Part shown: positions 1 through 64,000 of the stretch, one piece after another
How the letters are laid out: the number at the start of each line of letters is the position of its first letter
How positions within the stretch are numbered: position 1 is the stretch's first letter
Assembly: GCA_028753945.1 (NCBI GenBank)
Contig: JAPNXP010000003.1
Location: 3,596,001-3,660,000, forward strand
From: Hexactinellida sp. DTS-2022
Taxonomy: Eukaryota > Porifera > Hexactinellida
Length of the DNA stretch: 64,000 bases
Reading direction: 5' to 3'
Position numbers and translations under genes: made by a program
Notes under the pieces: model-generated
The model's input: only the letters and a program-made list of their open reading frames with translations
Told to the model about the DNA's origin: nothing
Databases searched by the model: none

Positions 1-3000
1 TTGAATATTAAATCGAATCGCATTAATTGTGGGGATGTCTCATCACTTATATACAAATCAACGATTCGATTGGTAACAGGTTTCGATACAATACCGTTAT
101 GATCGAGAATGAAACCAATAGCGAGATTTATAAAACTAGTTGATTTATTAGAGAAAAGAGGATCTTTTCTCCTAATTTGAACAAGGTCAAAGTTACTGAT
201 ATACACCACGACTTCACCATTTTCTTGTATTGAGCTGTTAATAAGCAAATATGGATTAGCAGAGTAAGGAGAATCAAGAAGGTATAAAAATTCTAACCTA
301 GTAGTAGAAGAATTTACTATTTCGCTGAACTTCAAAGTAATTATAGCTGTATTCATATCTATAGTTAAATAGATAAGTTCAGGCTGAATAAAGTCAGCAT
401 TGTGTCCAGTGACCTGAATAATTGATTCTAAATTGGAATTTCCGGAAGTATCTTCAGTAGCATTAGCTAGGAGGTTAATGAATGTGGTATTAATATTATT
501 ACCCAGTGGATCTCTATTAATTATCTGCTCAATATCACTGGAACTTAGAGAAATATAGACTGTAGTTGTATACTCAGTAAAAGGTATCATACTAGAAGTG
601 CTAAGAGCATAGGAGATTGTACCAGCTTGATCGCGCTGAATAACGATCTTTGTAATGTCCAGAGTACTTGGATCGATTACCTCATCAAATTTAATAGTTA
701 AAATGTAATGGTTGGTGCTACCAACTTCAAACTCGTCAGTAGAGACATAAAATTCATTCAAAATAGGGCCGCGGGTATCAGGAATGAGATTGATTGAGGA
801 GATAATTTGACTACCGGGCATAAGTGGATTGTTGGTGTAATCATACACTGCATTCCCTTGGAAATTCAGAGTACAAAATGATAGGGTTGGGGTACAAAGT
901 AAGGTGTCAGATTTAATTTCATCTAGAGTGTGGGATGTTAACATAATATCAACAGCAATCTCGTCAGAACTAAAAACTGTTCCATTTATTAAAACAGCAG
1001 ATAAAGGATTACTAAGCGAAAAACTTCCGACAGTGAGAGTAGAAAGTCGAATTACTTCATCAAAAGTAATACGCAATATACCAATAGTAACATCAAATTC
1101 GAAAGAAATAATGAGAGGGCTCCTGAAATCAGGAGTAAATATATCAACAGATCTCCCATCGAATCCACTAATAGAATCAAGAAAATTATCTGAAATATCT
1201 CTAGCAGCATTTGGTAGAATAGAGAGAAACGTATTATTATTTCTTGAAGCTATATCAGGTGAAGACTTCAACCTATTCGTATCAGTAGCGCTGAGTAAAA
1301 CACGAATTATCCTCTGATCGATAGTAGGTTGTTCTCTTGGAATTGTTAACTGAATTAGAGTAAGCTGCACTGATTGTCTCTGGTTTTGAACAATAAAATT
1401 GGGCAAGTAGATTGAAGAAGCTTTAATTGCCTCAGAGAAAGTGAGGGTAAGCATACTGTCATTAAGATTAAGAGAAAATCCTTCTAGAATAGGTTGAGTA
1501 ATATCCCGATACACTTGAGTTGCTGGGCTTGGAGAACCATTAGGAATAGCAATAATTGGATTACCGTGAACGTCTTGAACAGCTGCATATTCGACACGCA
1601 TAAAAGCATTTGATATATCATTAATTAAATCTGTTCTAATCTTAATTTGATCTAGATCATCTCTAGAGAGAGTTAATTTGAGAAGTATATCGTCGACATT
1701 AAGGATACTACCACCTCCCATTAATGTATAAGGATCAGAAGAGGTGAAGGTCTCTTGAAGAATTAACCTAGTTTGTAAAAGGCTCGATGCCAATACTACT
1801 TCATTGAATGACATAATAATTAATCCATTATTGAGGTCAATTGAAAAGTCAATGAGAACAGGAGCAATTAAATCAAATAAGTAACTGCTTACATTGAGCG
1901 TTGACCCAGGATCAATAGCCACTAAAGGATTGCCTGTAACATCAGAAACTGCGTCAAAACTGGCAATGAGGTACGTATCATCAGCATTCTCTGTTGCAAG
2001 ATCGGAGATTCTATTAATTCTGTCAATATCTAATTGGGATATTTGAACAAAGTAAACATTAGGTTGAAATGTAGGTTGTAATATACCAGAGGTTAGAGAT
2101 ATATTTGAGGTAGCCAGTGTACTCTGAGCATTGTTTAAGAGAGTGATGAGTTGGGGCTGGAAAGAATCTGGATCTAGAGATTCAGAAAAACTGAGTGTCA
2201 GCTGATAACTATTGAGGTCAAGAGTGAATTCAAGAAGCTCGGGTTGTGTAATATCAGTAGTGAAATTCGTAACTTCAAGACAACTCTCAATTGCATTTAT
2301 TCCTGCTGTATCAGATATAACTTCTGCAGTTATACAGAGAAAGGTATTATCTCTTCTCAACGCAATATTGGGATTCGCTTTGAGGGAGTTGAAATCCAAT
2401 TGTGTGAGGTTAAATTCTACAATATAACCATTAGGACTATTAGTTACTCCACCAGTTAGAGAGTATTTTAAATTGGAGGGTAGATCACTAGTAAGTGAGC
2501 CATTGCTTTGAAGAGTGATGCGGTTAGGCTGGAAGGTGTTTGGAAGAATTATATCGTTGAATGTAAGTATGATAATTCCGGAATCTGCATCAAGCGTATA
2601 TTCAGTTAATGTAGGTGGAGTAGTATCACCAAAGTAAATTTGTACAGGTAACACCGAGGTAAAATTGTTTGGATTACCAGCAACATCTTTAAAAGCGTTA
2701 GAATAAATTTTGATAAAAGTAGTGGAGTCTGAGTTAGCAAGTGCTGTATCAAGCTTCAAAAACTGGATATCAAGGGGATCTAAGGATAGTCTTATTTGCT
2801 GCTTTGTCAATGAATCTACATAGTTGGCAATGGTAGATGAGAGCCTCAAGTTAGAACCACCAGTCTGGGTTGATTGAAGAAGAAATTTAGTACTGTTCAA
2901 AGTTGTATTATCTATAGGTTCATTCGAAGAAAGAACAAGTGTGCCTTGATCAAGATCAATAGAAGAAAATATAATGTCAGACGGAGGTGTTTTATCTGGT

Positions 3001-6000
3001 AAGTAATTAGATGCTGCGAGTGCATTACCATCAAGTCTAGGCTGAATACTATTAGCTGAGGTACCAAATGGCCCAGCTCCAACATCAAAAATTAGATTAG
3101 ACGAGTAGGTGATGAAAGTATTGTTTAAATCAGATGCTAGATTTCTGATCGCCTTGATGTAAATAGAGTCAATTTCTGTCAGGATAAAAGTAACTATAAG
3201 TTCTTGATCAGCAGTTAATCTGTTACCACCAGTCAATGTATAAGAAACATCAGCAACTAAGTTATTTTGAAATGTAATTTGATTCTCACGGAGAGTAGGA
3301 GAGTTCACTACTTCATCGAAAGTGAGTGATAACAATAGAGTGTCCATATCCAAAGACAAGGCAACTAGCTGAGGTGGTGTAAAGTCTCGAAGGGTTTCTT
3401 GTGCATGCTCCGTAGGTGTAAATAAAACTGTTTCTACTTCAGTAATCGGGTTCCCAAATAAGTCCTTGATGAAACCAGATTTTAAACGAATAAAACAGTT
3501 CACGTCCTGCCTACATAAAATTGAATTACTCTTGACATTATTTAAATCATTTGAATTTAAAGTGACATTAAGTAAAACGCTATCCACTTGAGAAACGTTT
3601 CCACCTGTTAGAGTTACTCCTTGAGCATCTAATCTTGAGTTAGTGCGTAGGCTAATTCGAGTAACATTAGTTGTCGAAACATCAACTATCTCTGAAAAAG
3701 AAAGGGATATCTGTCCACTATTAAAATCGAAACTAAGAAATTGAGCAAGAGAAGGCCTTTGCGAGTCAGCAGTAAAATTAGTTGCAGGGAATGCATTATT
3801 TTTTGATATTCCCACAACCTGATTACCGCTAGAATCGGTGACCAAATCAGGAGAAAAAGTGACAAAACAATCAACAATGCTGAAGCATAGATTTTCCAAT
3901 AGGAATATTCCTTGTATATCTGAAAGGAGAAGGTCAAATTGCAGTTCTGTACTATTCTGAGGAACAACAGCCGTAGAAGGAGATAATACGTAAGTGGATA
4001 TGTCGGAATGTAGAATTTGTTGATGATTTTGTAAGCTCAAGACAAATGGATAAGCAGAAGCAGATCTAACTGGCTCATTAAATACCAGGATAATAATTCC
4101 TTGTTCTAAGTTTATAGTAAATTTTAATAAGAATGGAAAAGTAGTATCAATAACAACTTCAGTAACCTGAAGAGCTTCATTAAATGTTCGCTTAGTGATG
4201 AAATTAGTGTTCATATCTTGTACAAGCTGATCGGTATAAGATATATATGTGTTAGTGATAGAGGTAGCCAGTTCAAAATTAGATTTAATAGCATTGATAT
4301 CCTGAGTAACAAGATATAAGTTAAGAACTGTGGAGAAATTAGCAAAGGAACCATGATGCTGGACAGTGAATGAAGTCGTGGGTGAGTCAGTTTTGTTACT
4401 AAGGAGAGTAATTGCTTTAGAATAAAAAGTAAAAAAATTAATCGTTTCAGAAAAAGTCAATGTTAGAAAGTTGGAATCAAGATCTAGAGTGAATTCCACT
4501 AAGATAGGAGGTACGGTGTCTTGTATGAATATAACTGGTGTAAAGGAGGGTTCTGTTAATGCAATAGAAGGATTGTCAAAAACATCTAACACAGCAGCAT
4601 TACCGATTGTCAAAAAGGTTGTGTTGATAGATACAGCTAGAGCCAACTGGGATACCAAGGTATTAAAATCGTAATTACTTAGGGTTACTATAGATACAGA
4701 AGCATTTGCGTACCTCAGGATTTTAGCCGTAGTCAATCGTTGTACTACAGTAGCATTTTCTGGCCCGTTTTGAAGTGATATAGCAGACACAACAAGAGTA
4801 TCAAGTTGGATTGCCTCTGAAAAATAAATAACTAGTTCTCTGGTAGAGAGATCTAAAGTGTATGATCTTACAAAAGGTCTTGATGTATCGCGAATAAACA
4901 TAGCAGCCTGTAAGCCAGTAGATAATTCCAAAGAAGGGTTATTGTTGTAATCTGACACCAAGTTGCTATCGAGGAGAATGTGTGTATTTTCCCTTTGTGT
5001 GGCAAGGAAGTCAAACATCGATAAAGCAAGAATATCGTTGGCATGTATAAATATGCCCACAATGTGACTGTTCATTGTAGTGATTAGTGAGAGATCGCTT
5101 AGTCTGTAGGTATCTCCATTCTGAGCGTTTGAACTAAAAGATAGAGTGGATAAATTTAAGGTATTTAGCTGTATAATTTCACTAAAGGTGAGAGAGAATC
5201 TCGTAGTATTCATATCGATACTAAAGGACATTATAGACGGGGGAATATTGTCAGGAATAATCGATGTAGAAGGAAAGAGGGTAACGGGAAGGACAGGATT
5301 AGTGTTTGTATCATCCGCCATAGTTGAGGGAAAAGATAAATAAATAGTAGCTTGACCAAAGCTAGGGTTAGATTTTATATAATTTGCGTTACTGAACAAC
5401 AGAATTATATCCACCACCTCCGAGTCAAGTCCTATTGATTCTCCTCCAGTTAACGTAAAAGATAGAGTTCCAGCCTCATCAGCAAATAGAGAAATGGTAG
5501 AACTGTTTAAAGTCTCTAAATTTATGACATCATTGAAAGTAAGACTTAAAATTGTGTTTGACAAATTTAGCAAAAATGAAAGCAGGCGTGGTCGAGAGGA
5601 ATCTGGGATAAAATAAGAAACACGAAGGGCGTCATCTGGTAGAATAGCAATGACAGGATTATTGGAAAAATCTTGAATCATAGCAGAAGGAAATGTAATA
5701 TATAGATCTTCAATTGAAGTAGCAAAGTTTTTAGTTTGTTGAATAGTATACTTATCTATATCGAGTAATGTAATATTGAGGACACTCCCATCAGCTATGT
5801 AACTCTTAGCACCTGAAAGAGTGAGAATACTAGAAACGCGTCCAGGATCATTCATTAGAGTAATAATATCAACAACCAAAGAACTAGAATTAACTGCTTC
5901 TGAAAAGGTAAGGGAAAGAAGAACCGCGTCACTAATATCAAAGCCAAATGATATAAGAGAAGGATCTTCGTTGTCGTCAATAATATCAGATGACGCCAGT

Positions 6001-9000
6001 GTTACTGGTTCAATTCCATTCTGAGAGAAATCACTTATACTGCCCTCTGGAAGAAATAAGAAAGTATTAGTTAGTAATGTTCCAAGTTCAGAATTTGCTT
6101 TTATTATATCAAGATCACTCTGAACAAGATTAATTGTGATAGTAAGACCATCTTCTTCTCGTGAAACATTAGGTGTAGGTGTAATTAAAAAATAATAAGA
6201 TATTGGAGGGATATTATTGTCATTAATATAATTTTGTAAAGTGATACTTCCAGTGGGGCCAATAAATGTAAGGCTATCAGGATTCACAGGTTCAGAAAAC
6301 AAAATTTGTAAAAGGCCTTCATTTAAGTTCAGTATAAAGCTCCGAGGCACAGGTATTTGCATGTCAAGTACCACTTCTGACGCAGTGAGAGCGTTTCCAT
6401 CAGTTATCGATAATACATCGATCCCAAGTAAATCATCGACAGTAGAAGCTTGAATGGTGACAAATGTGTCATTAGTAGAAAGACCTAAGTCCGCAATTGT
6501 GTTGATTGCAAAAAGGTCGACAGGAGAAATTATAACAACAACAATAGATCCAGAAACGGAAAATGTTCTAGATGAGGGAGTCAGTGTGTAAAACTTTCCA
6601 GGTACTCGAGTTTTTGAATTTTGTAGGGTAATTCCACTAGCATCAAAAGTGGCGGTGTTAGCTGCATCGTCAAAGGTTAGGGTGATAATACTTGAATTAA
6701 TGTTAAGTGTAAATGAGAGGAGTATCATACGGTTGCTGTCAGCTATATATGAACCAGTTTTGAGACAAGGTACAAAAGTAACATTATTATTGGCATAGTC
6801 ATGTGCAACGTTAGATGTTATCTGTATGTAAGTACTGTTATCGTTGGTAGCAAGTCCAATAGTTCCAACAATCAATGATATGTCTGAAGAAAGGATCTTT
6901 ATTGGAATAACTAGAGAGTCGCTAGATTGATCAATTATTCCACCAGATAGGGAAAGGTTTAAACTAGAGTTAGTACAACTGGAACGCAATGTAATACCAT
7001 TCAAATTAAGCTCAGGGAGAAATAATGGTTCATCAAACGTTAGGGTCAATATTTCATTAAATAAATCTAATACGAAATTAAGAAGACGAGGGGAAGTTGT
7101 GTCAGGTATAAATTCGGTGACAGGAATGGCGTTATGGGTAAAATTATTCCCAAGTGAATCGATCGACTTATCTCGAATAGTATCAGCTGCTAATGAGATA
7201 AAGGTATCTGATTGTGAAGAAGAAATATTAGCTTTCTTTATACGATTCAGGTCAAAATCAGAGAATACAACTTTAATCACAAGGGAGTTAGGATTAGATA
7301 TAATACTATACATTAATTGGTAGCTAGATGTGGGAAATATTGAATGGCTCTGAAGTGTGACACCAGTAACCAAGAATGTCTCTGGTATGATAGGCTCATC
7401 AAATGTAAGTGTAAGAGTACCATTTTCCATATTAATTGTGGAATTGATAAGCACGGGAGGAAGATTATCTGAGACAAATGTTGTTACAATTAATGGGAAA
7501 CCCGACAATACGAAACTATTTTTTTGGTAATCACTTACCAAAGAACTAACAGCTGATAGGTAACAATTACCTCTATATCTACAAATATGGTTATCAAATT
7601 TAATAGCTAAAATATCTTCCCTTGAAAGAAAAATTGTAACTGTGAAGTTGTTGTCAAACATGAATTGGCCAGATGTTAGTGTATAAGTGCTAAGCGGGTT
7701 GAGGAAAAGTGTCTGGAGAGTAACAGACTGCAACCTGAAAGAAGAAATATTAATGATCTCTGAAAATCGGAGAACTAGCGATCCAGTAAGAAGGTTAAAT
7801 TGAACAAATTCAATTAAGGTAGGGGGAGTAGTATCATCAATGAATAATGATATCATTTGGTTGGAGGGAAACTCAGTGTTGGGCAAATTAACCATATCTT
7901 TGATTGTGCCAACTGGAAACGATAAGAAACAATTCTGGCTGTTTCTAAATGTACAAATAGGCAGAGATTTGATAGAGTTGAGATCATCATCAGATAATAA
8001 AATGCGAACAATAGGATTATTACTAGAAATAGAATAACTTGTGGTAAGTGAGTGTGTAGTATTGAATGCAAAAAGAGCTATGTTGGGAATAGAGAGCGAT
8101 GTTACGTTTACAGTTTCATTGAAATACAAGGTAAGGATGCCTTGATTAAGATCAAATTCAAAACTGTTCAATTTAGGTTGAATAGTATCTGATATATAAA
8201 CTGAGACCTGTTTGCCTCTAACAGATGCGATAGGATTGATTCGATTACCATTAAAATCAAAGATAGCGATTGAACTGATTATAAAGAATGTGTCCGTGAT
8301 ACTAGTAGCAAGATTAAATTTCTTAATTTCATTCAAATCAGTCTCTAACAATCTAAAGTGAATTATATTGTTCGGGAATAGTGTAAGAAGTTCAGCACCA
8401 GTGAGAGTTAACGATGAGCCAATTACAAATGAGTTTTCTAAATTTTGTAAACCAACCATTTGGGGATCAAATAAGGTAGTGTTAATAGTTTCTGAAAAGT
8501 AGAGGGTAATAATTCCAGAATTCATATCCAAGTCAAAAAAATCAAGGGAAGGACGGATATGATCTTCAACATAAGATGTAACTTGAAGAGCATTTGCAAT
8601 TGAAATTTCTTGGGATAAAATTCCAACTGAATCCTCAATAAATCCACGCGGGAGGACAAGGAAAGTAGAATTTACGCTAACTGCCAAGTAAGTAAGTGCT
8701 TTGATCGCATTGAGGTCCTTCAATACTAGTCGAATCTCGATAATTGTATCAGTAATTGAGAGAGCAGAACCTTGAGTGAGAGTGTATGTATGATCAGAGA
8801 TGCTATGTGAAGCTTGCAGTGTCACCAGTGATATATTTAGAGTACTTGGACGAATAGTCTCAGAGAACGAGAGAAGGAGTGTTTCAGTTGTGAGGTCGAA
8901 GTTGAAGCTGGTAACTTTGGGTCGAATAACATCGATGGTTATAGAGATGGGAGATACAATTTCGACAGGAATAAAATTTTCAAACATATCTGCAATAAAT

Positions 9001-54000: not shown

Positions 54001-57000
54001 ATAGCAGGTGTTGCATCGAGAACAACTGATGAACTTGGAAAATTTGATATTAAAAGGTTAGGATTATTACCTACATCAAAAAATGAATCAGATTCGATGG
54101 TTAGAAAAGTATCAGTTGATTTGGTACCAATATAAGCGTGAGTTTTGATAAAAGAAAGCGTTTCCCCAGAAAGATCTATGTAGATAACACGGGAAATAAC
54201 TGGTATAGTAGAACCATCGCTGTCAACTAAATTACCACCAACTGTGACATTTAATTGAGAAGAAGAAGACGAGTTGTGTAGCAAAAAACTGGATGTAGCA
54301 ATACTTGCACTATAGACTAACTCTGAAAAGGTGATGACGAGCTGGTTGGCGTCAAGGTCAAGCAGAAATGATGAAACAGTGGGAGGAGTGGTGTCTTGAA
54401 TTAGTCGATCTACTCTAAGTCCGTTAGAAGGCAGTATCTCAGTGACAAAGTTGGGAGTTGAAGCTAAGTCTGTAATAGCAATAGGGTCAATTAAAAGAAA
54501 AGTACTGTTTTGATTAGAAGCAATAGGTGATGATTTTATCAAGTCGGAATTTAAACTGATGTCAAGTATCACTTGTAATGAACGGGTGTTAGAAGAAGTA
54601 GAGCCTAACAAAATTATTTTATCTCCAGAGTTCGAGGATTCTTGTAGAGATATAGCTGACACATTAAGAGTTGAAACATCCATAGGTTCGTTGAATGTGA
54701 GGACTAGAATGTCTTGATCAAGGTCTAAATCAAAGCTTTGTAGAATAGGGTCCGTGACGTCCTCGATGAACTCACCCAAAAGTCTCTCAGTTATAAGATT
54801 TCTCAAATTGGGAATTTCGGTTACATTATTAGGAGCTTTAGCCACATCTGTAATGAAGGATTCACTAAATGCTGGGACACAGTTCGTGGCTAGAACGCAT
54901 ACGCCAGTTCGCAACTTAATTTCGTTCAATTCAGTTTGTGATAAACCAAATGTAAGAAGACTAGATGTTAAGCAGCCAATAGAATTAGTACAAATTCCAT
55001 TAATGAGGGTATATGACAGCTGGAAATCCAATCTATCAGTTAAGAAGTCATTTTGCAAAGTAAAGCTTGAGAATGTTGGCGGAGGTAGAACAGGTTCATC
55101 AAAGCTCAGCGTTACCAAACCTGAATTTAAATCAAACAGAGGGAAAGAGACTAATGATGGTCTTGTTGTATCTGGAATGAATGAATACACAGCCTCTCCG
55201 AGATTAATAGCCAGTATGGGATTACCACCTGTATCACTTAGAGCATTATACATAACGGTTAAAAAGGTAGTGCTGTCATCAATAGCAAGAGAACGATTAG
55301 TTTTAATGAAGTAGACATCCTGTAGAGATAAAGTAATTGTTATGTATGTTAGATCTGAGTTGAAAATGAGAGATGTAGAAGTGGAAAAAACAACAAATTG
55401 GGAAGGATTAGTAATTGAACTTTGCAAAGTAAATGCCCTGAGATCAAATGATGATAAAAGTATTGGTTCATCGAATTGCAAGGCTAGTTCCCCACTATCA
55501 AGGTCGAAAGAAAAATTTGATAAACGTGGGTTGATACTATCATTTACATAGGATGATACAAGAATTGCACTACCATCTGGAATTGGGATAACGTTTCTTA
55601 AGGCAACATCTTGTATTCCACCCAGTCTAAATGAAAGGAAGGTATTTAGAGGTGAAGTAGCAAGGTTAATGTCCTTCTTGATCTCAAGTATATCTTTACT
55701 CGAAATTAGAACTATTATGTTGAGGCTGGGAGAAGAGGTAATTGTAGGATTATACAGAAAGGTATGTCTTTGTGTAGAAAGGGAAGCGTCCTGGATGGTG
55801 AACCTAGTTAGGTCGAGGGAACTGGGTATGACTACATCATCGAATATGAGTGTAAGTAGATCACTATTGAGGTCCAGGCTGAAGGAAATCAAGCTTGCAG
55901 CAGTACTATCCAGGATAACAAAGGATGCTTGCTTATTTTGCTCTAAATTTGGTTGGTCATTCATATCAACAAAAGAATTGGCTTGAATTCTTAGGTATGT
56001 ATTACTCGTAGATGTGCCGACATCCACAAGAGTAATGAGTGCTAATACAGTGTTATTTAGCATTTGAATAAAAACAACACTTATACCATCTATAGCTGGC
56101 CCCCCAGTGCTGTTCAAGAGATCCCCAGTAATGTAAATAACAGAAGTTGATATAGTTGAGTTGTGAATGTAAAGGAGAGTTAGGTTGATTGCGGAAGCTT
56201 TAATATTTTCAGTAAAGGTTAGTCTAAGTTGATTGTTGTTTAAATCCAGAACGAATGACGCTAAACTGGGGTCAGTAATATCCCTGATAAGAAGTTGGAC
56301 TTGCTGAGCTCTGGAGTTCAGAAATGATTGTTCCAGAGCGAAATTAGGCGGAATTGCAACGTCTTGAATAGCTGGACTAAAAATGCTAATAAAGGAGTTG
56401 GACTCAGTTGTAGCAAAGTTTCTTGCTTTCAACTCGTCCGCATCAGTGTTAAGATTGAGAGTAATTGCTGTTAAATTCCTGTACAATAGAGTTGATGCAG
56501 AAAGCGAAAACAATTGACCACCACTAGACAGTTCATGAATTGTTATAGAACTAACAGAGAGACTAGATTCACTGACAGGCTCATCAAAAACCAAGGTCAA
56601 TAGGTTAGCATTAAGATCTAAAATTGACTGATTGTTAACCAAAGAGGGGCTTGTAGAGTCAAGTAACAATTGAGATAATAATTTATTGGAAGCGAGGTTA
56701 AGGCCAGTAACGACAGGCGTTATATAATTTGGGATAAGTGCGTGGTCATGAGCAAATGTACCATCAATTACTGGCAAACAACTTTCCTCAGTAAAACAAA
56801 GTGAAACGCGAGACTTGATTTGATTCAGATCATAATCAGTCAGTTTGAAAGTTATGATATTACTGTCAACACAAGTTATACTTGCAGTGCAAATTCCCCC
56901 GGTTAGCAAATAGTAGTTGTCAGGATTTGAGAAATCCTCATTAAAAGTATGAGTTAGGGTAATTGCCGAAAATTTTAATGTTTGTACAACGATTGACTCT

Positions 57001-60000
57001 GAAAAGCTCAAGGTCAATAAGCCGGAGTCTAAATTAAAAATAGGGAAAGCGAGTAGATATGGAGGTGTGGAGTCGGGAGTAAATTGAGTAACAGAATCGC
57101 TAGATTCTAATATGCTATTATTGAAAGTATCTCTAACTGTGTCAGTGGGAAATGATAGAAAAGTGTTGCTTGGTTGAGTAGCAATCAATGTATTATTCTT
57201 AATTGATTCCAAATCTCCCGAATTAGCTAGTGCTAATGTAATTTCAGTTAAATCAGAACTAACTGTAAAATCATTAGTTGTTAATATTTGTTGATCAAGA
57301 TTGAACATAACTCGATCTTGCAGGACTAATTGACCAACTTTCAGCGTGGATACATTTAAAGGCTCATCGAAACTAAGAACAAGAATTCCAGAATCTACAT
57401 CCAAGTCAAATGCAGTTAACTGGGGTGGGGTAATATCCGGAACAAATGTATCCACTTGAATATCAGAGGCAGCAACTATTGGCAATAATGAAGTATCTAA
57501 AAAGGACGTACTCAAAAGAGATAAGAAAGTTGTATTTTCAGAAGTGGCTAGATTTAGGGAACTTTTTATTCTGATCACATCCGCTTCTGAAAGAGTTAGT
57601 ACTACAATAAAATCATTAGTTGATTCAGGAGTAATACCTGAGAGCTGAACAGATTCATTGGGACTGAGTGAGGAGAGAGTTATTGACGAACTGATTACCG
57701 AGGTTGAAGAAATTACATCATCAAATGTCAAAGTTAAGGTGTTTGAATTAATATCAAGGTCAAAGCTAATAAGCGAAGCGGGTATAACATCTTGTAAAAC
57801 ATTGCTTGCTTGGATGGGAGGACTAATTTGTGAATTTATCTGTCCGAAGATATCGCTGAATGATCCGGCTGGAAAGGATATAAATGTGTTAGAGGTAGAT
57901 GTGCCAATACGATCATCTCCTTTTATTTTAGTTGTAGTGGAGCTGTCCAAAAGTACCTTGAGTGAAGTGATGCCATCCGTAACAGGATTACCATCAATAC
58001 CAACCACAGTTCCTCCAATTGGAAAACTAACTGGAGCAAAGTCGCTTGGTTGGTTCAGCAGGAGTGAGTTAGCTAGATTAAATCCCGTTGCTGCACGAAC
58101 TGCCTCAGAAAATACTATAAGAATTGAGCTCGTGTTCAAGTCAAGCTGGAATGAGCTAATTTCTGGGTTTTTATCATCAGCTGTAAAAAAAGAAACATTA
58201 AGAGCATTGTTAGCAAGAATAGGTACAATTGAATTTGGTGGGATTGCTAAATCACTGATAGCAAATTGTGAAATAGAAAGAAAGGTATTCGTTGCAGAAT
58301 TAGCAAATCCAGATGATCGGATAGTCGCACCATCCCCTCCCAATTGAAGAATTAGTGATGTTAGTCCTACACTTAGTATAGTTGAGAACTGTAAGGAAAC
58401 TGAAGAACCAGAACCATCTTGTACATCATGAAAATTTATTTGATTGATAATTAAAGTTGAGGTGTCAACTGCTTCACTAAATTCCAATCTAAGCTGATCG
58501 TTGTTGAGGTTTATATCGAAGGCTATAAGCTGGGGACTTGTAGCATCGGGGATGAACGAACTGAGAGAACGTTCTGTTGAATTGGCAACAACATTCAGCA
58601 AGGTTTGTACAGGATTACCAGAATGGTCTCGAATGAAAGGACCATCAATTGTCAAAAAACAGTTCAAATTACTAGTACAAAGTGAAATACGAAATTTGAT
58701 ATTGTTGAGTTCAGATTCACTCAATAAGAAGGTAACATTTCTCCCGCTAATACAACTATATGCTGGTGGACAAGTGCTGGAACTTAAGGAAAAGTAAGTT
58801 TGAGATTCGCTCTGATTTATAGACAGAGAATTCTGCAAGGTTAACGATGAGAATGTTATGGTGGAAGTATCAACTGGTTCATTGAACCGAAGTTGAATAG
58901 TACTATTGTCCAAATTGAAAATAGCAAAAGAAATAAGGGATGGAGCAGATATATCAGGAAAATAATTGAATGGAGATATACCAACGTTACGTCCAATGAA
59001 AGAATTGTTTGCTGTATCGTTAATTAGTCGATCGAGGAATAAAATAAAAGTATCGAAATTATTTGTAGAAAGTGATGTATTCAATTTTATAGAATCTATA
59101 TCATTTGTTAACAAACCAATTGATAAAATTGTAGACTTTGATACCGTAGAAACAGCAGAATTTCCAGTTAAAATGAGAGAAGCTGTAGGAGACTGAGGTA
59201 GATTTTGTATAATAATTTTATTAGTGAGAAGTGAAGATAATATTATTGGTTCATCAAAAGTGAGAACAAGAGTGGCTGTATCTAAATCAAGTGTGTAACC
59301 ACCAATAACAGGTGGTGAGGTATCAGGAATATATTGTTGGACCATTAGAGCATATCCATCTAGTATTCCCACGATATTAAGGCCGTTAGTATCCTTAGCA
59401 GCATAAGAACTTATTATTAAGAAAGTATTCGACTCGGATGTAACAAGTGATGAGGTGTCTTTTAAGGAATTAATATCATCTTTTGATAATGTAATATTGA
59501 GGTAGAGAGAAGGAATAGTTGGCAGGGATCCTGTTGTTAAGTTAACATATACCGTAGCTGTAACAGCATCTTGGATACGAATTAGAGACAAGTCAAAACT
59601 ATTCGGTTCAACAGCATCTGTAAAACTTAGTGTGAGTATTTCCTGTTGCAAATCCAAAGAAAAATATTGTAACTGTGCGGGCGTCGTATCTTGAACTACA
59701 TTAGCTGCTCCTATAAAGTCTGCTGTGTTAGAATTTCCAGCAATATCACTAAATGCGTTTGAACCAATAACCAAGTATGTATTCGTGGTGTGCGTTCCAA
59801 GAGTTACTTGAGATTTTATGGAACCGATAGTTGCTGTACTCAAAATCAAACGTACTTTATCAATTCCATCAGTCAAGTTAGCACCAGTACTACTAACCAG
59901 ATTCCCGTCAATGGAAATAAAAGGCATGCCCATGCCGAAAGCAGTGCCTTGAAGATTGAACTGCAGCAAGTCAATAGAAGCTGTGATAAATTCAGAAAAA

Positions 60001-63000
60001 GTAAAAATTATTTCGTTTGCTTCCAAATCCAGAGTAAAAGAAGTTAATTCAGGTGCAGTAAGGTCAGGCTGCAAGTTGCTGACATTGATGGCTGATTTAA
60101 TTGAAATCTCGTTCACAGGATTACCAGATACATCTTGTATAGCAGACGGTTGAATAGAAAGGTAAGTATTAGAATTATTATTGGCAAATCCAGATGCTTT
60201 AATAAGATTAGCATCGTTGTTCAGCTGAATATCAAAGACAGTAGCGAAATCAAACGTAGAAGTACTCGCAGCGGACAGATAGAGTTGTGATGAACTGTTG
60301 GCAGTCGATTGAAAAGAAATTGAGAAAATATTTAAAGTGCGAGGGTCCACCGGTTCATTGAAAGTAAGTATCAATTTGCTAGCATTCAAATCTAAGTCAA
60401 AAAATATTAGAGTCGGATTCGTTCTATCTGGAAGTAATTGACCTAAAACTCTTTCATTGAGCTGAATGGCTCCATTGAAGACTGTATTCAAGTAATTAGG
60501 TATTTCGGCAAGATCGCTAAGAAGAGTGCGGGAAATGACTGGGAAACAATTGATAATAGATGTACATAAATTAGGTCTGAGTTTTATTTGATTAAGATCA
60601 TAATAAGAGAGTTGGAAAGTAATATTAACTCCATTCTCACAACCTGACATCACAGAGCAGGTTCCATCGGTTAAAGGTAAAAATGCAAGAGGATCCAAAT
60701 AATCAGATAGGAAGTTACTTTGAAGAATAAGAGCAGAATAGTTGAGTGAGGATACAGAAATAGCCTCATCAAAATCAAAACTTATCAGTCCATTGTCCAA
60801 GTCAAAAGATTTGAAAGAAAAAAGATTAGGAGATGTACTATCACGGGTGAAGTTAGAAACAGGTTTCCCAGTGAGCGAGTTAATTAGAACTAATGAAACA
60901 TCAGCTACTGCTCCTGCTCTGAATGATAAGTAGGTGTTGTCAACCCGTGTTGCGAGTTGTGTATTTGATTTGATTGCGTTTAGATCATACTCAGATAACT
61001 GAATAAATAAGGTAGTTGAATCTGAGATTACCGAAATTTCATTATCAGTCAAATTGACTTTTGGTGCCAGGGGAACTGTAGATCCCTGGATAGTAAAATA
61101 TTGAATGCGGACAGTAGATTCTTCAATAGGCTCGTTAAAAAGAATAAAGAGTCTACCTAAATTCATATCAAGATTAAAGGAAACTAAAAGAGGAGATGTT
61201 GCATCAAGTGTAAATATGGAAACCAATAATGCACTGCCATCAGGTATACCCACTATATTCTGTCCAGTAGGATCTAAAAAAGTATTTTCACGAAGAATGA
61301 GATAAGAATTTGTCCGTGAAGTTGCAATAAGTGTATTAGCTTTGATTGAAATCACATCCTGAGGATTAAGGTCTATAATGATAGTGAAATCAATTTGGGT
61401 TAAAATAGGACCACCTGTTAGAGGCACACTTTGAGAAGATAAGAAATTATTTTGGAGAGTAATAGATGTTAACTGTGCTGATGATATGTTTACAACGTCA
61501 TTAAATTTGAGAGAAATCTGATTAGAATTCAAATCGAGATTGAAGTATTGCAACTCACTAGATGTGGTGTCGGAAATAATACGAAGGGCAGTTATTTTCT
61601 GTTCTTCGTTGTAATGTCCAGAGAGGTCAGAAAATGAATTTGACATTGTAGAGAGTATAGTATTTCCTGTAAAGGTGCCAATGTTAATATCATTTTTGAT
61701 AGCAACAATAATAGATTCAGAAAGAAAAGCATAAACTTGGACAGCCTGAGTAAGTGGTTGACCAAAAGAATCTGAAACGTTTCCATTGAGCGGAATAGAA
61801 ATAGTGGGGCTTAATAAGGAATTATGTAAGGTAAAATTCTGAATATTCAGAAGAGATGCTCTAGTGATTTCGGTGAATGTGATTATGAGCAAGTTTGAAT
61901 TTAAGTCGAGAGTGAATTGTTGAATAGCAGGAGTACTGTTATCCTGTGTAAAGTTAGTAACACGAAGTGCATCTGAAGATAAAATAGCCTGCACAGGGTT
62001 TGGTAGAACAGCCAAATCAGAAATAGTTGTGGAGAGAATAGAGATATGAGTGTTATCTTGAAACTGGGCGGCTCGTATATTATTACCGTCCTGATTCAGA
62101 TTGAGCATAACTAATGTCGCAATAGTCTGATTAGAAGCAGCTAGGTCTAGAAAGACCGAGTTTCCCCCGGTATTATTTTCCTGGAGATTGATAGCTCCCA
62201 CATTAAGACTACTCACATCAACTGGTTCGTCAAAGTAAAGGCTAAGGAAGTCCGTATTTAAATCCAGGTCAAAACGATATAAACGTGGATTTGTTACATC
62301 TTGCGAGATAACTTTCAGCTGTCGTTCTAAATTGTTATTCAAATCGTTTGGAAGAGGTAATACCTTATTTGGAGGAATTGCGAGGTCAGTGATTAAATTT
62401 GCACGAAATGAAATGAAGCAATTTGAAAAACCAGAACAAAGTGAAGTACGAAATTTAATTTCATTGAAATCATTGGCAAGTAACTGAAGTGTTATATTGA
62501 GACCATTAATACAAGATAAGTTTGGTGTACAATATCCGCCATTCAGAGAATAATAAGTTTGAGGATTTGAAAGAGTAACTTGGAGAGAATTTTGCAAAAA
62601 GATTTCTTCAAAGTTTAGTGTCGTAATATCGACAGGTTCATTGAATCCTAGGGTGATTAAACCTGCATCAAGGTCAAACTTGTAAAAAGAAACGAGATAT
62701 GGTGATGTACTATCCGGAATGAAGAACTTAACAAGCTTGCCACTAAAAATTTTCTGGATTGGATTACCAGTTGTATCAAAAAATCCAGTATCTAGAGTTA
62801 GATATGTAGAATCGCTAACGGCAAGATTTGTAATATTTTTAAGGTTTAGTATATCAAATAATGATAAACGGATAGTTGCAACCCTAAAATCAAGACTGAA
62901 TGTGATAATTTCAGCTTGAGTTAACTGATAAGTTTCGTTATTTTGGCTATTTTGCAATGCAATACCAGAAATGTTGATTAAATCGTTTCTAATAGGTTCA

Positions 63001-64000
63001 TCAAAATATAACGTAATATCGCCAAGATTCATATTCAAATCAAATTCTAAAAGTATAGGGCTAGTGGAGTCTGCTGTAAAGTTAGAAGCTTGAATGCCAT
63101 TTCCGCCTGTAACAGCAATTAAATCTTGATCGGCAATATCCTTAAACGCGTCAGCACGAATCGTAACAAAAGAGTTAGATAAATTAGTGAACAGTTGAGT
63201 TTGACGTTTGAGAGAAATTAAATCAGATCCACTTAAGTCAACATTAATATAATATCCCGAAGGACTACTGGTAGAACCACCTGTCAATTCAAATGTAATT
63301 GCAGCAGTAGAAGCATCTTGTAGAGTAATTGATGAAAATATAGCAGTAGTAGGATTAATAACATCAGTAAAAGAAAGCACCAAAAGGCCTAAGTTCATAT
63401 CAATGGAAAAAGCGTAGAGCCTAGCTGGGGAAGTGTCTGAAATTACTTCAGAAGCTTGGATAATAGAGAAAAGATTCCCTTGGTTTCGAGTATCCTGAAA
63501 AGAATCTGCAGATAATCTGAGGAATGTATTAGGAATACTCGTGCCAGTAGTTGTATCTGACTTCAGATCAATTACAGTCTGGTCGTTCAACAAGATATAG
63601 ACTATGGTATTTCCATCGACAACTGCATTTTCGTTCTGGTCAAAAAGATTTCCAGTAATTACGAGAGGCTCCGGAGTCAGACTGTTCGAGCTCTGTAAAC
63701 TAAGTTTAGTGACGTTAATATTAGTACTCAAAATTGCTTCTGAAAACGTTAAGCGAAGCGTGTTTGTGTTAAGATTGAGAATGAAGGAAGTTAACGTAGG
63801 TAAAATGAAATCAGGATTCACGTATCCAGCTTGCAGAGCATTGGAAGTAAGAATTGGTTCTATATCGTTTGGGGAAGGCTGAGCCACGTCCTGACTAGCA
63901 TTGGGAGATATTGCAAGGAAAGTATCAAGAGTGGTAGTTGCAAATGGCTTGGCTTTCAATAGATTAGCATCTGATTGTAAATTTAAAGTTATTGTTTGTG
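1..64000 (-). CDS. Giant tandem-repeat protein, internal fragment (both ends outside the window)
   Basis: One minus-strand frame (plus-strand triplets starting at multiples of three) runs through the entire window; whole codons span 3-63998, i.e. 21,332 residues, with no start or stop in view. Seen directly: 171 copies of a roughly 124-residue unit, all in the same phase, with anchor spacing 333-417 nt. No sampled stretch contained an in-frame stop. The units are beta-rich (alternating hydrophobics, many Ser, Thr, Asn, Asp, Leu, Ile), poor in Cys and Trp, with no membrane segment, coiled coil or catalytic motif noticed. The pattern F-S-E ... I-x-D-x-x-G-N resembles bacterial Ig-like domains of the Big_5/SbsA type; that assignment is inference. 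A regular string of small beta domains with disulfide-type Cys pairs suggests an extracellular adhesive or structural fibre. I know no named gene that matches, so I give no symbol. It could be a eukaryotic single giant exon or a bacterial giant gene. I am very sure of the reading frame and unsure of the function. Confidence 0.95.
3321..4082 (-). other. Tandem Cys-pair units U11 and U10 (12-unit half of L6)
   Basis: U11 has Cys codons at 3885 and 3867, with local sequence L-C-F-S-I-V-D-C-F-V. U10 has them at 3513 and 3495, with L-C-R-Q-D-V-N-C-F-I. Both loops are C-x5-C. The pair sits just after D-L-N-x-I-K, where ordinary units have L-A-T and T-F-L. The short loop suggests a local disulfide, which would imply an oxidising, extracellular location (inference). 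Confidence 0.85.
6387..6425 (-). other. D-type unit signature in U18
   Basis: The sequence reads G-I-D-V-L-S-I-T-D-G-N-A-L in the part of the unit where ordinary units have G-N-P-x-x-x-I and A-L-x-V. The same unit has F-D-D in place of F-S-E. Copies recur exactly 23, 46, 69, 92 and 115 units further up. Confidence 0.85.
7404..8123 (-). other. Tandem Cys-pair units U22 and U21 (opening the 11-unit half of L6)
   Basis: U22 has Cys codons at 7953 and 7929, with an unusually long C-x7-C loop. U21 has them at 7581 and 7563, reading I-C-R-Y-R-G-N-C-Y. The R-G-N-C-Y form recurs 23 and 69 units away (U44, U90), and a close variant occurs at U67. This supports true homology of units 23 apart. Confidence 0.85.
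11895..12650 (-). other. Tandem Cys-pair units U34 and U33 (12-unit half of L5)
   Basis: U34 has Cys codons at 12465 and 12447 (I-C-T-N-T-G-N-C-F-L). U33 has them at 12090 and 12072 (L-C-V-L-V-T-N-C-F-I). Both loops are C-x5-C. They lie 23 units from U11/U10. Confidence 0.85.
14898..14933 (-). other. D-type unit signature in U41
   Basis: The sequence reads N-D-V-L-A-I-T-D-G-S-A-M. It is the homologue of the U18 site one super-repeat away. The unit anchor is F-N-D (15177). Confidence 0.83.
15927..16667 (-). other. Tandem Cys-pair units U45 and U44 (opening the 11-unit half of L5)
   Basis: U45 has Cys codons at 16482 and 16458, with the long C-x7-C loop, Asn/Ser rich. U44 has them at 16113 and 16095, reading V-C-S-T-R-G-N-C-Y-I. 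They lie 23 units from U22/U21, and the same long/short loop order is kept. Confidence 0.85.
20430..21179 (-). other. Tandem Cys-pair units U57 and U56 (12-unit half of L4)
   Basis: U57 has Cys codons at 20997 and 20979 (L-C-F-E-Q-S-L-C-F-A). U56 has them at 20625 and 20607 (L-C-T-R-Q-F-N-C-W-V). Both loops are C-x5-C. The Trp after the second Cys of U56 recurs at U102 and U125, which occupy the same position in other long blocks. Confidence 0.85.
23514..23549 (-). other. D-type unit signature in U64
   Basis: The sequence reads G-I-D-V-L-A-I-T-N-G-K-A. It is the homologue of the U18 and U41 sites, with N in place of D before G. The unit anchor is F-N-D (23790). Confidence 0.83.
24543..25280 (-). 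other. Tandem Cys-pair units U68 and U67 (opening the 11-unit half of L4)
   Basis: U68 has Cys codons at 25101 and 25083 (L-C-D-S-Q-Y-D-C-F). U67 has them at 24729 and 24711 (I-C-D-R-R-G-H-C-Y-I). Both are C-x5-C, so U68 lacks the two-residue loop extension seen in U22, U45 and U114. Confidence 0.85.
28992..29744 (-). other. Tandem Cys-pair units U80 and U79 (12-unit half of L3)
   Basis: U79 has Cys codons at 29187 and 29169 (I-C-T-K-R-R-D-C-Y-I). U80 has them at 29559 and 29547, reading V-C-L-F-S-C-S-L. That is C-x3-C, the only shortened loop in the window. U80 also has Y-D-E in place of F-S-E. Confidence 0.85.
32043..32081 (-). other. D-type unit signature in U87
   Basis: The sequence reads G-L-D-V-L-A-I-T-D-G-N-G-L. 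The unit anchor is F-D-D (32316). Confidence 0.84.
33081..33803 (-). other. Tandem Cys-pair units U91 and U90 (opening the 11-unit half of L3)
   Basis: U91 has Cys codons at 33633 and 33615 (I-C-V-N-T-N-S-C-V-L) and an F-D-D anchor. U90 has them at 33267 and 33249 (L-C-T-M-R-G-N-C-Y-I). Both are C-x5-C. Confidence 0.85.
37506..38264 (-). other. Tandem Cys-pair units U103 and U102 (12-unit half of L2)
   Basis: U103 has Cys codons at 38082 and 38064 (L-C-T-S-R-Q-N-C-F-I). U102 has them at 37701 and 37683 (L-C-N-I-G-S-T-C-W-I). U102 is nearly matched by U125 one super-repeat away (L-C-N-I-P-N-S-C-W-A). Confidence 0.85.
40620..40658 (-). other. D-type unit signature in U110
   Basis: The sequence reads G-I-D-L-L-A-I-T-D-G-K-A-L. 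The unit anchor is F-D-D (40902). Confidence 0.84.
41637..42398 (-). other. Tandem Cys-pair units U114 and U113 (opening the 11-unit half of L2)
   Basis: U114 has Cys codons at 42207 and 42183, with a long C-x7-C loop (L-C-T-S-T-P-A-L-D-C-F-L). U113 has them at 41823 and 41805 (L-C-F-N-P-G-S-C-Y-V). Confidence 0.85.
46140..46889 (-). other. Tandem Cys-pair units U126 and U125 (12-unit half of L1)
   Basis: U126 has Cys codons at 46707 and 46689 (L-C-T-S-V-E-N-C-F-I). U125 has them at 46335 and 46317 (L-C-N-I-P-N-S-C-W-A). Both are C-x5-C. Confidence 0.85.
49185..49223 (-). other. D-type unit signature in U133
   Basis: The sequence reads G-I-D-I-L-A-I-T-N-G-K-A-L. The unit anchor is F-D-D (49467). 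It is the last copy of this exact signature in protein-N-terminal direction. The 5-unit blocks carry shorter D-G or G-N-G relatives instead. Confidence 0.84.
50220..50972 (-). other. Tandem Cys-pair units U137 and U136 (opening the 11-unit half of L1)
   Basis: U137 has Cys codons at 50784 and 50766 (I-C-T-N-S-T-N-C-F-Y) and an F-D-D anchor, like its counterpart U91. U136 has them at 50415 and 50397 (L-C-I-D-E-S-N-C-F-I), with a third Cys at 50343 in N-I-N-C-P-I. This is the first two-Cys doublet met in protein order after the four-Cys region. Confidence 0.85.
50973..55103 (-). repeat. Transition block (U138-U148), 1,377 residues
   Basis: Anchors are 51345, 51711, 52083, 52464, 52842, 53208, 53577, 53943, 54321, 54687 and 55095. 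It opens with four-Cys unit U148, typical of the 5-unit blocks. The distance from U148 to the next Cys unit, U136, is 12 units, the normal spacing of the 12-unit half of a long block. D-type unit U145 (F-D-D at 53943, T-D-S-N-G-L near 53685) sits three units after U148, the same offset as in both block types. This block is the junction between the two higher-order architectures. Confidence 0.85.
54696..55103 (-). other. Four-Cys unit U148
   Basis: Cys codons at 54990, 54972, 54897 and 54879 give C-x5-C-x24-C-x5-C. The second pair lies where the two-Cys units have theirs; the first pair is added in a segment before D-L-N, with local sequence I-C-T-N-S-I-G-C. The unit is 408 nt, about 12 residues longer than the average. 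It is the last four-Cys unit in protein order and marks the junction to the long-block architecture. Two disulfides are likely (inference). Confidence 0.87.
55104..57005 (-). repeat. 5-unit super-repeat block S4 (U149-U153), 634 residues
   Basis: Anchors are 55467, 55836, 56208, 56580 and 56997. It opens with the four-Cys unit U153, which at 417 nt is the longest unit in the window. The fourth unit, U150, is D-type (F-D-D at 55836) with a P-D-G-S-A-I motif near 55575. This is the last complete 5-unit block in protein order. The next block also opens with a four-Cys unit but keeps long-block spacing to the following Cys pair. Confidence 0.88.
56589..57005 (-). other. Four-Cys unit U153
   Basis: Cys codons at 56889, 56871, 56796 and 56778 give C-x5-C-x24-C-x5-C. 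Local sequences are I-C-T-A-S-I-T-C and L-C-F-T-E-E-S-C. The unit is 417 nt, the longest in the window. Confidence 0.87.
57006..58886 (-). repeat. 5-unit super-repeat block S3 (U154-U158), 627 residues
   Basis: Anchors are 57363, 57717, 58104, 58473 and 58878. It opens with the four-Cys unit U158. The fourth unit, U155, is D-type (F-D-D at 57717) but lacks a clear D-G motif. The block is 1,881 nt long. The plus strand here is open for 229 codons (57658-58347), which I read as an antisense shadow. Confidence 0.88.
58482..58886 (-). other. Four-Cys unit U158
   Basis: Cys codons at 58770, 58752, 58677 and 58659 give C-x5-C-x24-C-x5-C. Local sequences are T-C-P-P-A-Y-S-C and L-C-T-S-N-L-N-C-F. 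The unit is 405 nt. Confidence 0.87.
58887..60773 (-). repeat. 5-unit super-repeat block S2 (U159-U163), 629 residues
   Basis: Anchors are 59250, 59616, 59991, 60354 and 60765. It opens with the four-Cys unit U163. The fourth unit, U160, is D-type (F-T-D at 59616) with an L-D-G-Y-A-L motif near 59365. The block is 1,887 nt long. Confidence 0.88.
60363..60773 (-). other. Four-Cys unit U163
   Basis: Cys codons at 60657, 60639, 60564 and 60546 give C-x5-C-x24-C-x5-C. Local sequences are T-C-S-V-M-S-G-C and L-C-T-S-I-I-N-C-F. The unit is 411 nt. Confidence 0.87.
60774..62645 (-). repeat. 5-unit super-repeat block S1 (U164-U168), 624 residues
   Basis: Anchors are 61131, 61497, 61869, 62226 and 62637. 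In protein order the block opens with the four-Cys unit U168. The fourth unit, U165, is D-type (F-N-D at 61497) and carries a P-D-G-S-A-L motif near 61245. U166 has F-T-E. The block is 1,872 nt long, and its unit order matches the three following 5-unit blocks. Confidence 0.88.
62235..62645 (-). other. Four-Cys unit U168
   Basis: Cys codons at 62529, 62511, 62436 and 62418 give C-x5-C-x24-C-x5-C. Local sequences are Y-C-T-P-N-L-S-C and L-C-S-G-F-S-N-C-F. The unit is 411 nt. This is the most N-terminal four-Cys unit in view. Confidence 0.87.
62646..63998 (-). repeat. Partial 5-unit super-repeat block (U169-U171), N-terminal edge of view
   Basis: Anchors are 62997 (U169), 63363 (U170) and 63738 (U171), with part of a further unit running off the top edge. 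U170 has F-T-D instead of F-S-E, as expected for the D-type unit of a 5-unit block. U170 also carries a G-G-N-G-I motif near 63100, at the position where other D-type units have D-G. The four-Cys unit that should open this block would be U173, beyond base 64000. The codons up to 63998 are open, so the gene continues upstream. Confidence 0.85.

Follow-up and report, generated by a model that had tools for sequence, protein, structure and literature searches.

A 147-kb uninterrupted reading frame in a glass sponge predicts a 49,073-residue protein of immunoglobulin-like repeats

Can a single gene run without interruption through 64,000 nucleotides of an animal genome, and, if so, what would its product be? 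The question is raised by a stretch of the genome of the sponge Hexactinellida sp. DTS-2022, C12:3596001-3660000, where C12 is contig JAPNXP010000003.1 in a 112.4-Mb assembly of 18 contigs. This stretch is called the window here, and its letters are numbered from 1 to 64,000, with positions in the flanks continuing the same numbering. An initial annotation claimed that one minus-strand frame fills the window, and this claim holds. Translation of the frame (3..63998, minus strand; codons from 63998 down to 3) gives no stop in 21,332 codons, whereas the remaining five frames of the window have between 692 and 2,707 stops each. To extend the frame, 100 kb was fetched from either side, giving 264 kb examined in all, in which there is not a single N base. 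With the flanks, the frame is 49,073 codons long from stop to stop (147,219 bp; window -69042 to 78176, C12:3526958-3674176), and the same open frame of 49,073 residues was recovered independently by a search of the whole genome. The stops expected from composition over 49,073 codons number from 1,449 (by codon position) to 2,987, and none is observed. The predicted product, computed on the full frame, has a mass of 5.39 MDa and an isoelectric point (pI) of 4.2. The initial annotation saw neither end of the gene in the window; the open frame terminates in the flank on each side, and no membrane anchor is seen. The gene had also been placed in the size class of titin. Titin has about 36,000 residues, and the frame surpasses it. 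The accompanying benchmark of about 36,000 residues for bacterial giants was too low, as predictions of up to 85,800 residues are reported for bacterial proteins (PMC12057145).

What does the frame encode? It is tiled by 395 tandem domains with a median spacing of 124 residues. The domains were located with a profile made first from 80 sampled units and rebuilt on the 395 detected; the profile gave 396 matches, one of which, a 7-residue fragment, was merged into its neighbour. The mean pairwise identity of the repeats is 26%, with a maximum of 50% among the 392 near-complete ones. The conserved columns include D1 (97%), P5 (91%), F23 (95%), E25 (85%), D74 (85%), and D102 (97%). The initial annotation had counted 171 F-S-E anchors in the window. 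That number is the count of whole repeats in the window, and 165 of these 171 do have F-x-[E/D] near position 22; the literal F-S-E occurs 72 times in the window, and F[STND][ED] occurs 200 times. The in-window frame holds 90 cysteines, and by our definition 68 of these are in four-Cys domains or adjacent Cys-pair domains, where the initial annotation had counted 58.

A tandem array of this length could be suspected of being misassembled. Over the 147 kb, no exact word longer than 23 nt is repeated, and comparison of the sequence with itself at E 1e-5 gives three matching pairs, of which the longest is 111 bp at 71%. Because the repeats have diverged to about 26% identity and share no exact DNA repeat longer than 23 nt, collapse at read length or chimerism of the array is unlikely. 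The codons were then compared at conserved positions. At the two Asp columns kept in 97% of repeats, the GAT:GAC ratio is 67:33 and 75:25, and it is 72:28 frame-wide. Furthermore, 13 columns have a conservation of 70% or more, and every codon share in them lies within 9 percentage points of background. The third codon base at the conserved Asp is thus about as free as elsewhere, which points to old selection on the protein. Judged from the codons, a protein sequence kept while its synonymous sites were randomised is the mark of a translated gene. We find the single-frame giant gene confirmed as real in this assembly.

The array consists of two super-repeat zones, one of 5 domains followed by one of 23 (11 + 12) domains. 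Zone 1 comprises repeats 1-61 (window 77801 to 54762; in-window part 54762..63998, minus strand), and its 5-domain super-repeats are marked by a four-Cys domain. With a period of five repeats, 13 such domains are expected and 12 are present; repeat 6 retains one pair only. Within the window, all on the minus strand, the four-Cys domains are repeats 41 (62301..62714), 46 (60429..60842), 51 (58548..58955), 56 (56661..57074), and 61 (54762..55172). Repeat identity in zone 1 is 0.350-0.359 at lags from 5 to 30 in steps of five, and 0.261-0.282 at other lags. A transition of ten repeats (62-71; 51039..54761, minus strand) separates zone 1 from zone 2, which fills the rest of the window (3..51038, minus strand) and keeps its register to repeat 371, beyond the window.

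The markers in zone 2 are adjacent domains that each carry a Cys pair, and from repeat 72 they are spaced 11, 12, 11, 12. With one fixed motif, all 24 such adjacent pairs in repeats 72-371 fall on phase 3 or phase 14 of 23. Those within the window, again on the minus strand, are on phase 3 the repeats 72-73 (50286..51038), 95-96 (41703..42464), 118-119 (33147..33884), 141-142 (24609..25346), 164-165 (15993..16739), and 187-188 (7470..8189), and on phase 14 the repeats 83-84 (46206..46955), 106-107 (37572..38333), 152-153 (20496..21245), 175-176 (11961..12716), and 198-199 (3387..4148). Repeats 72-371 offer 27 expected places, and 24 of these are on the motif list; at 129, 313, and 348, the motif is present in the second domain only. 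The 13 units of 23 domains are 2,829-2,871 residues each. The period is also seen in the identities, which are 0.283-0.295 at lags 23, 46, 69, 92, 115, and 138, where the zone mean is 0.263. The highest value at lag 23 in 2,000 permutations is 0.270. In sliding windows of 60 repeats, 23 comes out as the top lag each time in the 20 that begin at or beyond repeat 60, but it does not do so for the final 40 repeats by themselves. Because identity hardly drops with distance, the super-repeat units look old, with no sign in the sequence of recent homogenisation.

Some irregularities of the array may be recorded here. Only two spacings were flagged as shorter than 105 or longer than 150 residues, those of repeats 206 and 228. 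Repeat 206 (window 819-1130) is short, at 104 residues, and repeat 228 (window -7329 to -6928) is a split profile match. Divergence is uneven along the array: mean repeat identity in sliding windows goes down to 0.245 over repeats 255-330 (repeats 255-329 lie outside the window, at -17008 to -44931) and up to 0.282 toward the end of the frame.

Three consecutive repeats (2256..3386, minus strand), together with 84 other stretches of the window, were submitted to AlphaFold2. The three-repeat model has a predicted local distance difference test score (pLDDT) of 96.3 and a predicted template modelling score (pTM) of 0.88. Each of the three domains is beta-rich, with one helix around a D-L-N-x-I-K motif. 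A Foldseek search with the model gave 381 matches at E ≤ 0.001, the top ones mostly tandems of immunoglobulin-like (Ig) and FN3 domains from contactins, titin, and NCAM2, with E values down to 7.8e-8. In the model, then, the repeat has an Ig-like beta-sandwich fold.

Does the repeat belong to a family that is already described? The giant frame was sampled against Pfam with three 2,000-residue pieces, of about 25 possible, and 60 repeats. No family, Ig and FN3 included, scores above its cut-off in this sample, and Calx-beta is likewise absent from it. All 395 recognised domains are the same repeat, and no kinase, such as titin has near its C-terminus, was seen in the three of about 25 pieces scanned; a further exon may follow downstream. 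The nearest Pfam family is Big_5 (PF13205), below threshold, which matches 10 of the 60 repeats at E values up to 0.1 (best, 0.0049) and scores 17.2 and 13.6 bits in two of the three long pieces and 16.2 bits in a paralogue piece; the cut-off is 23.6 bits. A Big_5 search of the whole genome gave no match, and a search of PDB sequences with the repeat profile gave nine weak matches, titin not among them. With nothing above threshold in the Pfam samples, the PDB sequences, or the genome-wide Big_5 search, assignment of the repeat to a known domain family was rejected.

The repeat family itself was found at three loci only, on contigs C12, C4, and C18, by two genome scans that give lower bounds of at least 109 stretches (37 of 125 candidates scored) and at least 62 stretches (68 of 68 scored). 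Of the two paralogous loci, both smaller than the giant one, that on C4 (C4:3194066-3229643) carries 90 repeats in an 11,202-codon open frame. It has an 18-domain super-repeat, in contrast to the periods of 5 and 23 in the giant frame: Cys pairs occur at repeats 5, 23, 41, and 59, three exact steps of 18, and the three lags of highest identity are 36, 54, and 18. In the sequence examined, no membrane segment precedes its stop. The C18 paralogue (L025:8046-8561 and L023:6998-8470, in piece coordinates) has, by eye, a stretch resembling a signal peptide immediately ahead of the first repeat. Unlike in the giant frame, the repeats in its first part shift frame often, as introns would cause, and it ends in a tail of TIG domains (three stretches, E 4.9e-28) and a weak, sub-threshold Calx-beta match (E 0.02), followed by a stop at which no donor-like site is seen.

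We consider it probable, with some reserve, that the window is the middle part of a single gene and that this gene encodes a modular, secreted protein, 49,073 residues long or longer, that serves as an extracellular tether, fibre, or ruler. The gene would consist of the single 147-kb open frame together with, probably, a short exon upstream that carries the start codon and signal peptide. Secretion of the predicted product is suggested because the C18 paralogue has a signal-peptide-like start, because N-glycosylation sequons are in excess (952 in the frame versus 823 ± 27 in 100 shuffles), and because no convincing membrane segment was found in the frame, the highest mean hydropathy over 19 residues being 2.15, in what reads as ordinary repeat. 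The whole frame contains two RGD motifs and one furin-type site. Ig-like domains measure 4-4.5 nm each, and the roughly 395 modules would fold into a rod about 1.6-1.8 micrometres long. Outside the cell, this rod could serve as a tether, a fibre, or a molecular ruler. The super-repeats of titin are thought to place binding sites along the thick filament; in the sponge protein, the 5-domain zone (about 20 nm) and the 23-domain zone (about 100 nm, with half-steps of 11 + 12) may place binding sites at regular intervals, with the Cys-pair domains marking or stiffening fixed stations. As to where such a rod might lie, the mesohyl fibre, the spicule sheath, the collar mesh, and the flagellar vane are guesses at candidate sites.

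Several observations weigh against this interpretation, beginning with the ends of the gene. The frame opens without a Met, 8 residues ahead of the first recognised repeat, and upstream of it are only AT-rich sequence and a polypyrimidine-like tract. A hexamer scan upstream for a start exon shows no clear exon. In 24.8 kb scanned for signal peptides, only two places came up, both weak, at window 82234 (with two donors) and 92158, and the start codon was not located; all three combinations of place and donor are in the phase that fits the acceptor, and all are weak. An equivalence of repeat 0 with the first domain of the C18 paralogue is unsupported, the similarity of the two ranking 141 of 395. 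At the other end, the frame terminates with LTGN-stop, 55 residues into a repeat, the stop being preceded by a donor-like GGTAAC, and the remainder of this last repeat was not found in about 31 kb downstream, where the best match is below 9 bits. The true C-terminus is uncertain because the frame ends in mid-repeat at a possible donor and no remainder follows. The 3' flanks past the C12 and C4 stops share a weak likeness, with a score that 11 of 500 shuffles attain; this likeness of AT-rich sequence says little about the stop, since C12-C18 (20 of 500) and C4-C18 (9 of 500) score about equally. Furthermore, when the count is loosened to adjacent domains with 2-4 Cys at any position, the whole frame yields 34 pairs; phase 3 or 14 accounts for 26 of them, and the other 8 are off phase (0, 151, 266, 289, 314, 365, 380, and 381). 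Among the best 50 of 1,828 Foldseek rows, the template modelling score (TM-score) over the three domains is at most 0.31, so the arrangement of the domains matches none of those 50 solved tandems. Finally, the secretion, rod shape, length, and ruler role are inferred.

Could the protein instead be a giant adhesion or recognition molecule, with a role like that of the sponge aggregation factors? Calx-beta domains are a defining part of these factors. In such a molecule, many weak, glycosylated, perhaps calcium-dependent domains would act by avidity; length would give reach, and the regular spacing would be a by-product of duplication. The acidic pI of the product and the excess of sequons are consistent with this, as are the TIG domains and weak Calx-beta match in the tail of the C18 paralogue, and the near-invariant Asp residues could, at a guess, bind calcium. 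However, the Calx-beta match is sub-threshold and confined to the paralogue, with none in the scanned sample of the giant frame, and the 11/12 register kept over repeats 72-371 appears to exceed what avidity would need. We regard an adhesion role of this kind as unlikely. It is also rather improbable, in our view, that the coding frame yields several smaller products by way of exitrons, alternative starts, or proteolysis. Translation of a protein of this size would take hours, and the frame changes in the first part of the C18 repeats are intron-like, both of which would favour smaller products. However, the nearly unbroken spacing of the 395 domains and their conserved register suggest selection on the array as a unit, and the 49,073 residues hold a single furin-type motif.

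There is very little probability, finally, that the frame is an assembly artefact, a pseudogene, or the gene of a contaminating bacterium. Size alone speaks for this, predicted bacterial proteins being comparable or larger (PMC12057145). An artefact was judged unlikely from the divergence of the repeats, the lack of long exact repeats (23 nt at most, with three self-matching pairs at E 1e-5), the lack of N bases in the 264 kb, and the intact frame. Also against this group of explanations are the signal of selection, the contig, which is 6.57 Mb long and has a gene with PDZ and weak PH matches adjoining the frame, and the paralogous loci on two further contigs. A bacterial, archaeal, or phage source was also sought. 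Six peptide patterns run against bacterial and archaeal genomes matched 44 stretches, none of them a relative, and a tblastn search of phage records gave no relative; the sensitivity of such scans is low for a family of 26% identity.

How does the extracellular tether, fibre, or ruler that we favour compare with known giants? Titin shows a striking likeness of plan. It too is built of tandem Ig-like domains with two consecutive super-repeat zones, in the A-band: a D-zone of 7 domains repeated 6 times and a C-zone of 11 domains repeated 11 times (PMC10862085), compared with 5 domains about 12 times and 23 (11 + 12) domains 13 times in the sponge frame. However, the sponge domains match no Pfam family above cut-off in the pieces scanned, Ig and FN3 included, and a helix lies around the DLNxIK motif in every one of the modelled domains. 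The titin gene has 364 exons (PMC12580133), whereas the sponge has one 147-kb open frame. Furthermore, titin is sarcomeric and intracellular, and the sponge protein is probably secreted, with Cys pairs and sequons. Because its domains match no titin domain family in the pieces scanned, we do not file it as a titin; the resemblance is one of plan, and descent from titin is not supported.

Likeness to Big_5 extends to sub-threshold matches, which never reach the family cut-off. The giant bacterial surface proteins, such as MpAFP, BAP, and those of Omnitrophota, are similar in carrying long Ig-like arrays on one polypeptide (PMC4083281, PMC4647330). However, MpAFP is reported to have about 120 identical copies of 104 residues (PMC4083281), whereas the sponge copies are 26% identical, form nested super-repeats, and belong to an animal host. 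PKZILLA-1 is likewise a eukaryotic giant, of 4.7 MDa, but it is described as a polyketide synthase with 140 enzyme domains (PMC12194139), and the sponge product is a repeat protein of 5.39 MDa. The predicted 49,073-residue protein would be larger than any known animal protein. No description of such a sponge giant was found in the titles and abstract openings of the openly licensed PMC literature.

If it is made as one chain, the known size limit of eukaryotic proteins moves past PKZILLA-1 and titin, and questions arise as to how a 5-MDa chain is transcribed, translated, folded, and secreted. A bolder statement, which we put forward tentatively as something short of probable, is that this is the largest predicted eukaryotic protein and the longest uninterrupted coding exon of an animal, and that it forms an extracellular two-zone ruler in which titin's plan was reached independently, with an undescribed Ig-like family, in an animal without muscle. 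With registers of 5 and 23 domains, the ruler idea can be tested outside muscle, as spacings of about 20 nm and about 100 nm are predicted for some extracellular structure of the animal. The locus also adds a domain family, without a Pfam match above cut-off in the scanned parts, that has three loci in this genome, two of them with different super-repeat periods.

The gene content of the genome was surveyed as well. ETS, Frizzled, and TGF-beta families mark animals, and their domains are present in 7, 2, and 4 stretches, respectively. No match to Wnt was found in the genome, in a search that multi-exon genes may escape and that had no positive control genome. A silicatein-like site occurs in none of the 6 cathepsin matches examined, out of 32. 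For the glass sponge Aphrocallistes vastus, loss of the Wnts with retention of much of the pathway and absence of silicateins are reported (PMC10282587). The G+C content of the region is 35%, and that given for Oopsacas minuta is 36% (PMC10280926). A glass sponge fits, and the host is probably glass-sponge-like.

Two neighbours of the giant frame were noted in the flanks. About 0.6 kb past its end and on the same strand, an open frame at window -71105 to -69567 (minus strand) encodes a PDZ domain (E 5.8e-7) and also matches PH weakly (E 0.002), and we take it to be syntrophin-like. Upstream of the giant frame, at a distance of about 24 kb and on the plus strand (window 102071-103393), there is a FLYWCH match accompanied by weak PHD and MULE transposase matches, and this stretch is probably a mobile element.

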